Assembly (NCBI GenBank): GCA_017400135.1
Contig: JAFPVJ010000027.1
Coordinates: forward strand, 62,001 to 126,000
Source: Bacteroidales bacterium
GTDB lineage: Bacteria > Bacteroidota > Bacteroidia > Bacteroidales > UBA932
DNA length: 64,000 nt
Direction: 5' to 3'
A model generated the notes under the pieces. It had not been told where the DNA came from, searched no databases, and saw only the letters and a program-made list of their open reading frames with translations. Position numbers and translations under genes: made by a program. Shown here in pieces: positions 22,632 to 63,386 of this stretch (positions are counted from its first letter, which is position 1; every line of letters starts with the position of its first letter).

Positions 22632-25083
22632 GAAGGCTTTGAAATGGGTGGCGGCTGCCGTCCTGGCTCTGCTGCCTTTGAGCGCCGGCGCGCAACTCTC
22701 CACGGCCAGCGTGGATCCCGAAGGGGATGCCGTCGCATTCGAGCAGGTAAGGAAGAAAATGGACCGGATCCGCCGGACCGAGCATAGACCCACGGTGGCC
22801 CTGGTGCTCAGCGGCGGCGGAGCGAAGGGTGCTGCGCACGTGGGCGTGCTCCGCTACCTGGAGGAGCAGCAGATCCCTGTCGACGTGGTCGTGGGGACCA
22901 GCATGGGCGGCCTGATCGGCGGCCTGTATGCGTTGGGCTACGATGTCCCTTATCTGGATTCCCTGGTCACGACGATGGACTGGAACCTGGCCCTCAGCGA
23001 CAAGGTCCCGCAGGATTACATTTCTTACGCGACCAAGATGTACAAGGAGAAATACATGCTCTCCGTGCCTTTCCATTATTCGGAAGACGTCTTCCGCGCC
23101 ATGATCGGACAGACGCCGGAAGAGCAGGCCGCCAGGAAAAAAGGGAAAAGGGGAAGGGCTGCCGCCCAGCTCGAGCGCAGCGGCATGGTCCAGGATCCGA
23201 CGACCGGGATGGAGCTCCCGATCAACAACATCGCGCGCAGTCTGCCGGCCGGATACATCAACGGCCTGAATGTCAACAATATCTTCAGCTCTATTTCTGC
23301 CGGTTACCAGGATTCGGTCAGTTTCCTGGATTTCCCCATCCCGTTCTGTTGCGTGGCGTCCGACCTGGTCAGCTGCAAGGCGAAGAACTGGACTTCCGGC
23401 TCCATCAACGAGGCCCTGCGTTCCACGATGTCCATCCCCGGCCTCTTCGACCCGGTCCGCACCCACGGCATGGTGCTGGTGGACGGCGGTACGCGCAACA
23501 ATTTTCCGACCGATATCGCCCGGGAGATGGGGGCGGACTATGTGATCGGCGTGGATTTGTCCGACAAGGATATGACCTACGAGGAGATCAACAACATCGC
23601 GGACATCCTCTGGACTTTCATCGACATGCTGGGCCGCGAGGCCTTCTCCAAGAATGTGGACAATGTGGACGTGTTCATCAAGCCGCATCTGCGTGAGTAC
23701 AACATGCTCAGCTTCGATACGAAGAGCGTCAAGACCATCGTGGGCCGCGGATATGACGCCGCCGTCCGTCAGGCCGACGCGATCAGGTCCCTGAAGGCGA
23801 TGATGCCGGATGCGTCGAAGACCCTGCGGGCCCGCCCGGCCGACGACATCGGCCGCACGCCCCTGCAGATCGCCAGCATCGAGTTTGAAGGGATGGCCGA
23901 CCGGGATTCGCGCTGGCTGTCCAAGAAACTGAAATTCAAGGCTGGAGATTATATCAACCGGACGCAGATCGACAAAGCGGTCGCCATGATCTTCGCCACC
24001 GGCTCCTTCGAGTCCGTCACCTACCGCCTGCTGGGCAGCGAACAGCCCTACCGGCTCGTGTTCCTGTGCCAGAAGCGGCCGATCCACCAGTTCGGCTTCG
24101 GCTTCCGCGCGGACAATGAGACGCTGGTGGATGCCATCGTCAACGTCGGCCTGGGGGCCCATCAGATCGCGGGAGTCAAGTTCGACCTGACCGGCAAGCT
24201 GGGCATGAACAAGTATGCCCAGGCCCATCTTTCCTTCGACGGACTCCGGACGCCGACGCTGAACTTTGACGCCAAGATCAGCGGCTACACGGCGGATGTC
24301 ACGACGGATGAGGCCCTGTTCCGCCTCAAGTATTGGAGCCATCAGGAAGAAGTGTATTTCTCCAATATGCACTGGAGGCATCTGGACTTCAATGTGGGCG
24401 GCCGCAACAAGTTCATCCGGGCGACGGACTGGCTTTCCAACCAGAACGTGGCGGCGTCTTCCGATGTGCTTTCGTCCATGGGAGGCAATTATACTTCCGC
24501 TTTCGCCAATGGTCGCATATATACGCTGGACGATTCCTATTTCACGATGCGGGGCATTGATTTCAATGCGAATTACGAGTGGGTGTTCGCCAAGGACATG
24601 AAGATCGGCTTTGCCGACGAGCACCTTGCGTCCGTGCGCTTCCGCACTGCTCTCCCGTTCGGCCGCCATATCTCCCTGCTGTTCGGCGTCAACGCCCGCG
24701 CCGTGCTGAACGGCGACAACGATGACATGACCAACCTGCCGCTCAAGAATTTCATCGGCGGTACGATGGCGGGGCGCTACATCGATCAGCAGATCCCGTT
24801 CTGCGGCTTCGGCGGCATGATGCTGGTGGACAATTATCTCGCAACGGCGGACGCGGCGCTGCGCCTGCGTTTCGGACGGAATCTCTTCACGACCTTCCAG
24901 GCGGGCGCTTTCAAGGCGGAGGATACCCTCGGCGGTTTCCTCGACATCCAGAACAAGCTGGTCCTGGGCGGTTGTTTCGAACTGGGTTACAAGACCATCG
25001 CGGGCCCGCTGCGACTGGATGTCCGTTGGAACGACTTGAGCAAGAAGGTGGGCGCATACGTCAGTTTCGGCTATGATTTCTAA
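22612..25083 (+). CDS. Patatin-like phospholipase with BamA-like outer-membrane barrel
   Basis: 823 residues with a signal peptide (ALKWVAAAVLALLPLSAGAQ). The patatin domain has oxyanion motif SGGGAKG (68-73), nucleophile Ser97 in GTSMGG and Asp291 in VDGGTRNN. A POTRA-like segment (IASIEFEGMADRDSRWLSKKL) follows, then an Omp85-type barrel ending in YVSFGYDF. This is the PlpD/type V-d-like architecture common in Bacteroidota, combining a lipid acyl hydrolase with its own barrel. ATGs at 22612 and 22624 are both possible. It overlaps recX by 11 bases, so rlmN, this gene and recX form one unit. Confidence 0.92.
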   Translation: MKRTMNRKALKWVAAAVLALLPLSAGAQLSTASVDPEGDAVAFEQVRKKMDRIRRTEHRPTVALVLSGGGAKGAAHVGVLRYLEEQQIPVDVVVGTSMGGLIGGLYALGYDVPYLDSLVTTMDWNLALSDKVPQDYISYATKMYKEKYMLSVPFHYSEDVFRAMIGQTPEEQAARKKGKRGRAAAQLERSGMVQDPTTGMELPINNIARSLPAGYINGLNVNNIFSSISAGYQDSVSFLDFPIPFCCVASDLVSCKAKNWTSGSINEALRSTMSIPGLFDPVRTHGMVLVDGGTRNNFPTDIAREMGADYVIGVDLSDKDMTYEEINNIADILWTFIDMLGREAFSKNVDNVDVFIKPHLREYNMLSFDTKSVKTIVGRGYDAAVRQADAIRSLKAMMPDASKTLRARPADDIGRTPLQIASIEFEGMADRDSRWLSKKLKFKAGDYINRTQIDKAVAMIFATGSFESVTYRLLGSEQPYRLVFLCQKRPIHQFGFGFRADNETLVDAIVNVGLGAHQIAGVKFDLTGKLGMNKYAQAHLSFDGLRTPTLNFDAKISGYTADVTTDEALFRLKYWSHQEEVYFSNMHWRHLDFNVGGRNKFIRATDWLSNQNVAASSDVLSSMGGNYTSAFANGRIYTLDDSYFTMRGIDFNANYEWVFAKDMKIGFADEHLASVRFRTALPFGRHISLLFGVNARAVLNGDNDDMTNLPLKNFIGGTMAGRYIDQQIPFCGFGGMMLVDNYLATADAALRLRFGRNLFTTFQAGAFKAEDTLGGFLDIQNKLVLGGCFELGYKTIAGPLRLDVRWNDLSKKVGAYVSFGYDF

Positions 25084-25534
25084 GGACGACAAACTGCTTT
25101 CTTCGCTGCAGACGCTCTGCGCCCGGAAGGAGTATTGCAGCGCTGACATGTACAAGAAGGCGCTGAAGGGGCTGGACGGGGATGAAGACGGGGCCGCGGA
25201 AATGGTGGCGTTGCTGGTGAAGGACAAATTCGTGGATGACCTGCGCTATGCGACGGCGTTTGCGCGAGACAAGGCGGGCCTGGACGGCTGGGGGCCGGTG
25301 AAGATCCGTTTCCAGTTGCGGGGGAAGGGGATTGCTGCCGCTACGATCGACGAGGCGCTTGCCGCCGTCGATGCGGACAAGGCGGGCGAGCGGATGCGGG
25401 CGGTCCTGGAGGCCAAGGCACGCACCCTGAAGGGCGATCCGGAACTACGGCTGAAGCTCCTGAAATTCGGCCTCCAGCGCGGCTACGAATACGACCGCCT
25501 CGATCCTGCGGTCCGCGATATACTCGGGCGCTAG
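25073..25534 (+). CDS. recX: Regulatory protein RecX
   Basis: 153 residues, mostly helical with three-helix repeats: LCARKEYCSADMYKKAL, then LVKDKFVDDLRYATAFARDKAGLDGWGPVKIRFQLRGKGI, a typical RecX stretch. RecX binds RecA filaments and limits their activity. It is not adjacent to recA but lies about 3.6 kb away on the other strand, the last gene of the rlmN operon. The stop is 8 bases before a long hairpin. Confidence 0.9.
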   Translation: MISKDDKLLSSLQTLCARKEYCSADMYKKALKGLDGDEDGAAEMVALLVKDKFVDDLRYATAFARDKAGLDGWGPVKIRFQLRGKGIAAATIDEALAAVDADKAGERMRAVLEAKARTLKGDPELRLKLLKFGLQRGYEYDRLDPAVRDILGR

Positions 25535-25541
25535 TGCCTGG

Positions 25542-25621
25542 ACGCCAGGTGGCCCTGAAGTTTTGGCTGCAGGAAAGAACCCTACGGGGAATGCAGCCAA
25601 AACTTCAGGGCCACCTGGCGT
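25542..25621. repeat. 30-bp perfect inverted repeat between recX and pdxA
   Basis: Left arm 25542-25571 begins ACGCCAGGTGGCCCTG and ends TTTTGGCTGCA. Right arm 25592-25621 is its exact reverse complement. The 20-base loop (25572-25591) contains CCCTACGGGG. The repeat fills almost all of the 97-base gap between two convergent stops. There is no T tract, and the stem is far longer than a usual terminator, so it may be a mobile palindromic unit or a transcription or RNase III barrier for converging polymerases. Confidence 0.9.
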
Positions 25622-25631
25622 TGATGAACGT

Positions 25632-26726
25632 CTAGGCGATCTGGGGGCGGCCGGTGCGGCGCTCGGGCTTGGGCTCGTCGCCCTCCCGCGGCCGCATCTT
25701 CCCCGCCTGCAACGCATCGTACGCCTTGCGGTTACGGAAAATGTCGATGGCCCGGTAAATGGATGAACGCATCGAACTGGGATCCGCCTCGTCACGTCCG
25801 GCCATCGCGTATGCCGTGCCGTGGTCCGGAGACGTGCGGACGATCGGAAGTCCTGCCGTGAAATTCACTCCATCCTCGAAGGAAATGGCCTTGAACGGCT
25901 CCAGGCCCTGGTCGTGGTACATCGCCAGCGTCGCATCGAATAGACTGTATTCCCGGACGCCGAAATAACCGTCGGGAGAGAAGGGACCGTAGGCCAGGAT
26001 GCCTTCGTCCTGAGCTTTTTGAATGGCCGGAATGATGACCTTCTCCTCCTCGTCGCCCAACAGGCCGCCGTCGCCGCTGTGGGGGTTGAGACTCAGGACC
26101 GCGATCTTCGGGTTGTCGATGCCGAAATCCCGCTCCAGGGAAGCCTTCATCAGGCGCAGCTTGCTGAGGATCTTTTCTTCCGTGATGCTGGAAGCGACGT
26201 CCTTCAGCGGGATATGGCCCGTCACGACACCCACCTTGAGCGCATCGCTGACCATCAGCATCGTGATGTCCTTGACGCCGAACGCGTTCTGAAGATACTC
26301 GGTGTGGCCGGCATAGCCGAATCCCTCCCGGGACATCGCCTTCTTGTTGAAGGGAGCGGTGACCAGGACGTCGATGTTGCCGTCCTTGATGTCGCGGACC
26401 GCCCATTCGAGGGAAGTCATCGCGGCTTTCGCCGACTCGGGCGTCGGCTGGCCGGGCTCGACGAACACGTTGTCCGGCAGGCAGTTGACGATGTTGATCC
26501 GTCTGGGATGCGCCTCCCTGGCGGAACGGATCACGTTGGTGTCCAACTGGTCTATCTCGTGGATCAGCTTCTTGTAGAAGCCGAATATTTTGGAGGATCC
26601 GTAGATGACGGGCGTGAACGCCTCGAGGATACGGGGATCGGAGAGCGCCTTGATGATCACCTCGTAACCGATGCCGTTGCCGTCACCCTGCGTGATGCCT
26701 ACGATGGGTTTTCTTTCATTTGCCAT
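25632..26726 (-). CDS. pdxA: 4-hydroxythreonine-4-phosphate dehydrogenase
   Basis: 364 residues; NAD-dependent step in the DXP-dependent route to pyridoxal phosphate. Conserved regions: VGITQGDGNGIGYEV at the N-terminus, VTAPFNKKAM, GHTEYL, and the metal/substrate site LAMYHDQGLEPFK, then TSPDHGTAYAMAG. The C-terminal 30 residues (MRPREGDEPKPERRTGRP) are a charged tail beyond the usual fold. Starts one base after the rnhA stop. Confidence 0.95.
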   Translation of the reverse strand: MANERKPIVGITQGDGNGIGYEVIIKALSDPRILEAFTPVIYGSSKIFGFYKKLIHEIDQLDTNVIRSAREAHPRRINIVNCLPDNVFVEPGQPTPESAKAAMTSLEWAVRDIKDGNIDVLVTAPFNKKAMSREGFGYAGHTEYLQNAFGVKDITMLMVSDALKVGVVTGHIPLKDVASSITEEKILSKLRLMKASLERDFGIDNPKIAVLSLNPHSGDGGLLGDEEEKVIIPAIQKAQDEGILAYGPFSPDGYFGVREYSLFDATLAMYHDQGLEPFKAISFEDGVNFTAGLPIVRTSPDHGTAYAMAGRDEADPSSMRSSIYRAIDIFRNRKAYDALQAGKMRPREGDEPKPERRTGRPQIA

Positions 26727-63350: not shown

Positions 63351-63386
63351 AAAAACCGCAATAGAATGCGCTCTATTGCGGTTTTT
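63351..63386. terminator. Bidirectional terminator between the AlkD-like gene and tRNA-Arg
   Basis: AAAAA, CCGCAATAGA, loop ATGCGC, TCTATTGCGG, TTTTT. A perfect 10-bp stem flanked by A and T tracts, so it can end both the plus-strand AlkD-like transcript and the minus-strand tRNA transcript. Confidence 0.9.

Follow-up and report, generated by a model that had tools for sequence, protein, structure and literature searches.

Among the described systems, the Rickettsia palindromic elements (RPEs) are the nearest known kind to the hairpin family reported here. RPEs are dispersed palindromes that occupy intergenic sites as well as in-frame positions in housekeeping genes, where they are tolerated as added peptides (cited sections of PMC10969869 and PMC6649704). 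In the cited section of PMC10969869, Rickettsia is presented as the outstanding case of in-frame palindromic elements in protein genes. The present family resembles RPEs in having copies inside conserved open reading frames (ORFs), with segments of TruB and a GHMP kinase that are missing from relatives. Nevertheless, it is unrelated to RPEs and is not a member by size, sequence, or mode of evolution. Its copies measure about 80 bp instead of about 150 bp (RPE facts from the cited sections of PMC10969869 and PMC6649704), and its hosts belong to a different phylum. It conserves the loop (arm identity 0.40) and not the stem or one peptide. Furthermore, RPE arms are described as losing their identity over time (cited section of PMC6649704), whereas the arms of this family diverge but mostly stay complementary.

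REP, BIME, and REPIN elements share with the family their short, mainly intergenic palindromes, which are sometimes paired in opposite orientation, and a strand-specific structure. REP elements are the nearest in their strand-specific single-stranded DNA logic. They differ in that the stem of the present family is about 30 bp long and lacks a foot tetranucleotide of the GTAG/CGTC type, that its stems are variable and its loop conserved, that it is often located inside genes, and that no linked RAYT gene was found at 12 Y1 loci. The coding palindromes of Nematomorpha mitochondria are likewise long, matched in-gene inverted repeats that are dynamic between species, and template switching was proposed to keep their arms matched (cited section of PMC6649704). 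In that case, both arms code for conserved protein parts, and the cited section makes no mention of a dispersed element with a shared loop (PMC6649704). MITEs such as ERIC and Correia are also small, dispersed, and built of inverted repeats (cited section of PMC10969869), but the present family lacks a conserved terminal sequence, and no target duplication was found at its junctions, which align poorly. With bidirectional intrinsic terminators the family shares its location at 3' ends and a long GC-rich stem; it differs by the missing T tract, the shared 20-nt loop, and the copies within genes. The distinguishing mark of the family is a conserved loop between arms that change freely but remain matched. 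Among the matches listed in a search of the open-access literature, the family was not described.

The palindrome discussed here lies between recX and pdxA in a window of 64 kb, which is the whole stretch of DNA analysed. With a probability of roughly three in four, it is one copy of a dispersed palindromic family of about 80 bp in a three-species clade of Cryptobacteroides, whose arms are re-matched by template switching. The left arm (25542-25571, plus strand) and the right arm (25592-25621, plus strand) are exact reverse complements at 30 of 30 positions and flank a 20-base loop (25572-25591, plus strand) that is common to the family; the 30-bp arms and 20-base loop of the first-pass annotation are thus borne out. 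The loop holds a mini-hairpin, CCC-TACG-GGG, at 25580-25589 (plus strand), and the loop core CCCTACGGGGAATGC (25580-25594, plus strand) extends from the loop into the right arm. The whole element (25542-25621) is assigned to the minus strand, which would be the folding strand judging by the A.C/G.T asymmetry of the family, as this copy itself has no mismatch. The convergent neighbours carry the names given to them earlier, since both score above the respective cut-off: recX (25073-25534, plus strand) matches PF02631 with 54 bits (cut-off 26), and pdxA (25632-26726, minus strand) matches TIGR00557 with 358 bits (cut-off 290). The spacings had been given as 8 and 11 bases; by the coordinates they are 7 bases from the recX stop and 10 from the pdxA stop.

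With loops of up to 150 bases allowed, this 30-bp stem is the longest exact stem in the window, and a perfect pair of this length is expected by chance about 8e-12 times in 64 kb. The next-longest perfect stems, of 15 and 13 bp at 63351-63386 and 1396-1425, are terminator-like and probably represent normal terminators, in contrast to the palindrome, which had been remarked to be far longer than a terminator stem. As RNA, the palindrome folds with -70.3 kcal/mol (z -12.1) on the plus strand and -66.0 kcal/mol (z -10.7) on the minus strand. Its arm has no further match within 3 mismatches in the genome of 2.3 Mb, and a 23-base part of it gave only one unrelated hit with 3 mismatches (G123) in 199 other genomes. 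Nothing useful was returned by an exact arm search of GTDB contigs and viral contigs or by a search of plasmids with the 97-base region. An Rfam search with 13 stretches yielded only microRNA-precursor models, all below the gathering score.

The family became apparent from the loop and not from the arms. The genome of the window (G000) was compared with the assemblies RGIG4902 (G200) and SRR873603_bin.55 (G201); the three represent sister species of Candidatus Cryptobacteroides (Bacteroidales), and the pdxA genes of G200 and G201 are 94% and 93% identical to that of the window. In G200, recX and pdxA are convergent with no such hairpin in the gap. The gap of G201 contains two long hairpins whose stems are unrelated to that of the window, while their loop cores (CCCTTCGGGGAATGC and CCCCTTCCGGGGAATGC) are nearly the same as CCCTACGGGGAATGC. 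The repeated unit is therefore the loop together with the architecture, and not the arm. For the same reason, an arm search misses the family: such a search had been suggested as a test of mobility, but with an arm that is unique in the genome it would wrongly reject a mobile repeat. A mobile palindromic unit was nonetheless the closest of the three options offered at first, and it stands with the correction that the arms differ among copies while loop and architecture recur.

The core CCCTNCGGGGAATGC has 16 exact matches in G000, including the copy in the window, compared with 0 for the reversed control; with one mismatch allowed, it occurs in 27 places versus 2 in the control. Selected by the core alone, 13 of the 16 occurrences cap long hairpins with different stems (pairing score of at least 20). 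The other three comprise one weak hairpin (L140), one unpaired core (L137), and one core running off a contig end (L150). When 440 kb of G000 were scanned simply for hairpins, both of the longest perfect stems, of 30 and 25 bp, proved to belong to the family. A covariance model, R1, found 47 matches in G000, 48 in G200, and 42 in G201, counted strand by strand, and none in two further relatives (G202 and G203). Its other matches on contig C27 fall outside positions 62001-126000, which agrees with the earlier remark that the window holds no second copy. After removal of double-strand matches, 112 distinct copies were obtained (31 in G000, 44 in G200, and 37 in G201), of which at least one is a contig-end duplicate (L284 of L185); these numbers are lower bounds, as 150 of 583-894 candidates were scored per genome. 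Pairing levels in this set of 112 copies, 101 of them with stems of at least 20 bp, are biased upwards because the search model rewards pairing, and the unbiased pairing figure is the 13 of 16 given above.

The genomes were assembled from metagenomes, and contigs end at or within copies in all three assemblies (L150 and L244 in G000; L281 and L284 in G200; L267 in G201). Copy numbers are therefore underestimated, and the hairpins of such elements may contribute unnoticed to the fragmentation of assemblies.

Beyond the clade, model R1 matched three of 150 relatives at E <= 1e-4, namely G000, G007, and G082, with divergent loops in the latter two. A broad model, R2, matched at least 32 of 400 genomes of the genus with 11 candidates scored per genome; judging by the coordinates, G238 and G247 in this count seem to be G200 and G201. 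All 11 loci inspected from other species are long hairpins with loops that are only partly alike; thus, not all such hairpins need belong to the family. Related-looking hairpins of other Cryptobacteroides species at L341, L342, L344, and L347 (in G384, G259, G142, and G366) have nearly identical stems, CGGAACGGCAACTGTCCC..., in contrast to the hypervariable stems in the clade of the window.

Within the clade, stem length is near constant, with 27-31 bp in 79 of the 112 copies. Among 15 aligned copies, 96% of the cells are paired and both sides have changed in 27 of the 30 stem pairs; the covariation score is 0.855 versus 0.196 after shuffling and at most 0.150 after sliding. A weak consensus of the arms fades about 30 nt from the loop, and arm identity within a genome is 0.40 versus 0.28 when shuffled, copies with short or gapped stems having been left out. 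This weak consensus and the above-chance identity suggest that the copies share common descent. Fifteen same-genome pairs in which both stems reach at least 20 bp match over at least 70 nt in a manner confined to the element, compared with 0-2 pairs (mean 0.6) across ten rounds with shuffled arms. The copy in the window is 79% like the one at G000:C1:12095 over 75 nt. Likeness of same-genome copies within the element only points to dispersal. In G200, elements at two unlinked sites are alike over 81 nt; at one of these sites, G000 has a collapsed hairpin with a 15-bp stem that matches its own copy at the other site. This pattern would be the expected trace of copying between sites.

A longer subtype is represented by three copies on one contig, G000:C9 (L239 4336-4414, L239 6711-6789, and L243 1372-1450), which are 82-92% identical over 88-102 nt and have unlike flanks. 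This trio comprises the most recent-looking copies in the genome.

Many element sites are common to the three species, as indicated by comparison of the flanks. In 13 shared-site pairs, one of which has only one flank matched, 364 pair positions were compared: 245 are unchanged and 73 have changed on both sides with both states Watson-Crick paired, while the rest are Watson-Crick versus A.C (25), Watson-Crick versus G.T (11), or other (10). Arm identity at these sites ranges from 0.25 to 0.96, and the matched flanks are about 70-94% identical. The first-pass annotation named recent formation as one of three possible implications of the exact arms. This does not follow, as 22 of the 101 copies whose stems reach 20 bp are perfectly paired, and at shared sites both arms change yet stay paired. 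Several shared-site pairs have the loop in opposite orientation with respect to the flanks. This is clearest for C24 of G201 versus C13 of G200, with one flank aligning, where the arms differ by one base and the loop is exactly inverted; two more inverted loops at shared sites have arm identities of 0.75 and 0.61. Template switching between inverted repeats leads to arm homogenisation and spacer inversion (cited section of PMC8604942), and arguments have been put forward that it preserves the hairpin stems of RNA genes (cited section of PMC8794818). From the pattern at the shared sites, we infer that template switching re-matches the arms.

The mismatches reveal an asymmetry between the strands. 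When the strand with the loop core is read, A.C mismatches number 114 versus 32 G.T (p = 5e-12), with 61 others; counted per copy, 56 have more A.C and 11 have more G.T. For copies within ORFs, the ratio of A.C to G.T is 39:11 if the model strand has the sense of the gene and 15:3 if its complement does; for copies in convergent gaps, it is 41:7. The small classes are not significant (5:3 and 3:1 for co-directional copies, 7:5 for those overlapping gene ends). The complement of the loop-core strand seems to be the folding strand, because the A.C mismatches become tolerable G.T/G.U wobbles there. We infer that the strand that matters is this complement, which corresponds to the minus strand of the window for the copy between recX and pdxA. 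RNA-level selection was considered as a source of the asymmetry and rejected, since the same bias is present in genes transcribed either way. The asymmetry is not easily explained by mRNA structure; a process of DNA folding on one strand could explain it, and the asymmetry points to such a process.

With respect to placement, genes around the copies were called by a home-made codon score and not by a standard gene finder. Among the 101 copies whose stems reach 20 bp, these calls place 58 between genes with a called neighbour on either side, 28 wholly within ORFs, and 10 across the end of a gene; for the remaining 5, only one neighbour was called. The intergenic copies divide into 41 convergent, 16 co-directional, and 1 divergent, versus a base rate of 47 convergent and 47 divergent among 274 gene pairs in stretches of G000. 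Copies in convergent gaps lie a median of 25 and 16 nt away from their two neighbours, and the co-directional copies favour neither orientation (9 versus 7). The preference for convergent gaps may reflect placement where the least harm is done, and it could also reflect selection for a function at the 3' end instead of mere tolerance.

The 28 copies inside ORFs occupy 24 ORFs, and 17 of the 20 ORFs scanned have a Pfam family. The hosts include DnaX, TruB, TruA, MurB, a GHMP kinase with two elements, and a Mur ligase with three, as well as dehydroquinase/EPSP synthase, phosphohexomutase, cyclomaltodextrinase, and a radical-SAM TRAM protein. By comparison of the sequences, TruB is a clean case of insertion: G000 and G201 align straight through, the match splits around the element in seven of nine genomes, and the 28 codons of G000 correspond to only 6 bases in G200. 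Two elements are present in the GHMP kinase of G201, and the segment is missing in all seven other genomes with a match. The murB gene of G200 seems to retain a decayed remnant at the place where G201 carries a copy, as seen in part of the alignment output. The Mur ligase of G200 (L233 12229-13743, on C19) stays in an open frame with its three elements. In the corresponding stretch of G201 (L235), two of the three are missing, and a shortened palindrome is found there.

No target-site duplication was found by scoring arms against flanks, and sites with and without the element give poor alignments around the junctions. Scores of at least 20 were reached by 0, 2, 0, and 0 of 93-95 copies in the four comparisons, versus 0.5, 0.2, 1.0, and 0.5 in the controls. 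In an element of the GHMP kinase of G201, 18 nt of the left arm match the corresponding gene of G200. Copying of the arms from the target site was rejected, as the only excess is that of the left arm versus the left flank (2 of 95 versus 0.2).

Several other explanations of the palindrome have to be weighed against a dispersed family with re-matched arms. A dedicated bidirectional terminator or 3'-end protector, in which an RNA hairpin insulates converging units and the loop binds a termination or decay factor, would be in line with the excess of convergent over divergent gaps, the short distances to the gene ends, and the covarying stems. However, the 8 bases that follow the stem include five or more T in only 4 of 94 copies on the complement strand and 3 of 94 on the model strand. 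More than a quarter of the copies lie wholly within reading frames, where the wobble asymmetry is independent of the transcribed strand. Together, the strand asymmetry, the missing T tracts, and the in-gene copies disfavour a dedicated terminator; the lack of orientation bias in co-directional copies and the missing hairpin in G200 also count against it, and this explanation is improbable. A device specific to recX and pdxA, such as a cruciform or a small RNA cut by RNase III, would account for a very stable hairpin that fills the gap exactly. About 30 copies are, however, present elsewhere in the same genome. The first-pass annotation had raised selection to separate converging polymerases at this site and named a conserved site as support for a local function; since the same convergent gap lacks the hairpin in G200 and contains two with unrelated stems in G201, a function specific to recX and pdxA is rejected and has hardly any probability left. 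Even less credible is chance, a chimera, or an assembly artefact. The assembly is fragmented, with 28 contigs and an estimated completeness of 88.6%, and several copies sit at contig ends, but separate assemblies of other species share the loop and the architecture, and the flanks run into intact and different genes, unlike in a fold-back chimera.

The family could also consist of true REP elements mobilised by a RAYT (TnpA-REP) transposase of G000, which is quite improbable. Six Y1/RAYT-like hits are present in G000, and the query that gave them itself matches the NCBIfam model REP_Tyr_transpos with 36.9 bits, below the cut-off of 80. Paired and clustered copies recall REP dimers, and the strand-specific folding signature is reminiscent of TnpA-REP, which acts on one strand (cited section of PMC8266576). 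Against this, no tetranucleotide is conserved at the foot of the stem, where the information content beyond the paired region does not exceed about 0.2 bit per position, and the stems of about 30 bp compare with 5-13 bp for REPs (cited section of PMC3733652). No transposase could be linked to the family: all three clade genomes possess Y1 (RAYT-like) genes, but so do 22 of 29 others (25 of 32 overall), and of the 12 Y1-gene loci examined, 10 have hairpins, none with the family loop core.

RAYT-like Y1 genes were noted at L287 (G000:C3), L288 (G201:C54), L289, L290, L291, L293, L296, L297, and L298. They encode about 300 amino acids, reach up to 12 hits per genome, and are often flanked by short hairpins of their own with other loops, e.g., TGCGCCCAATGG...CCATTGGGCGCA. 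Between 9743 and 9853 of L235 (G201:C25), short hairpins with TGCTCCCAATGG/CCATTGGGAGCA lie between two family elements. These resemble the ones adjacent to Y1 genes, so that two repeat families stand side by side. Apparently, several separate REP-like families exist in the genus.

The preferred reading is a dispersed family whose arms are re-matched by template switching. Its copies would have spread as a non-autonomous mobile repeat via a hairpin that one of its DNA strands forms when single-stranded, and would survive where insertion is least harmful, i.e., at gene 3' ends and in flexible protein loops. After insertion, the arms would drift fast, and template switching during replication would re-match them and occasionally flip the loop. 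The copy between recX and pdxA is probably a passenger, and any effect of a 3'-end hairpin on the recX and pdxA mRNAs would be incidental. A bolder version, which is rather unlikely, holds that only the loop of about 20 nt is inherited. Both arms of about 30 bp would be rewritten together, by template switching or by dedicated reverse-complement copying, on one specific single strand; the length of the hairpin would be kept and its sequence would not, while the element spreads between genes and into essential proteins.

The family serves as a warning that searches with arm sequences overlook repeats of this kind. It represents a natural experiment on how long stems stay matched during sequence turnover, offering three sister species with many sites in common, inverted loops, and an asymmetry between the strands, and it makes the explanation by template switching directly testable. 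As a second case, unrelated to that of Rickettsia and found in a rumen genus, it would suggest that the insertion of palindromic elements is a more general route of protein change.
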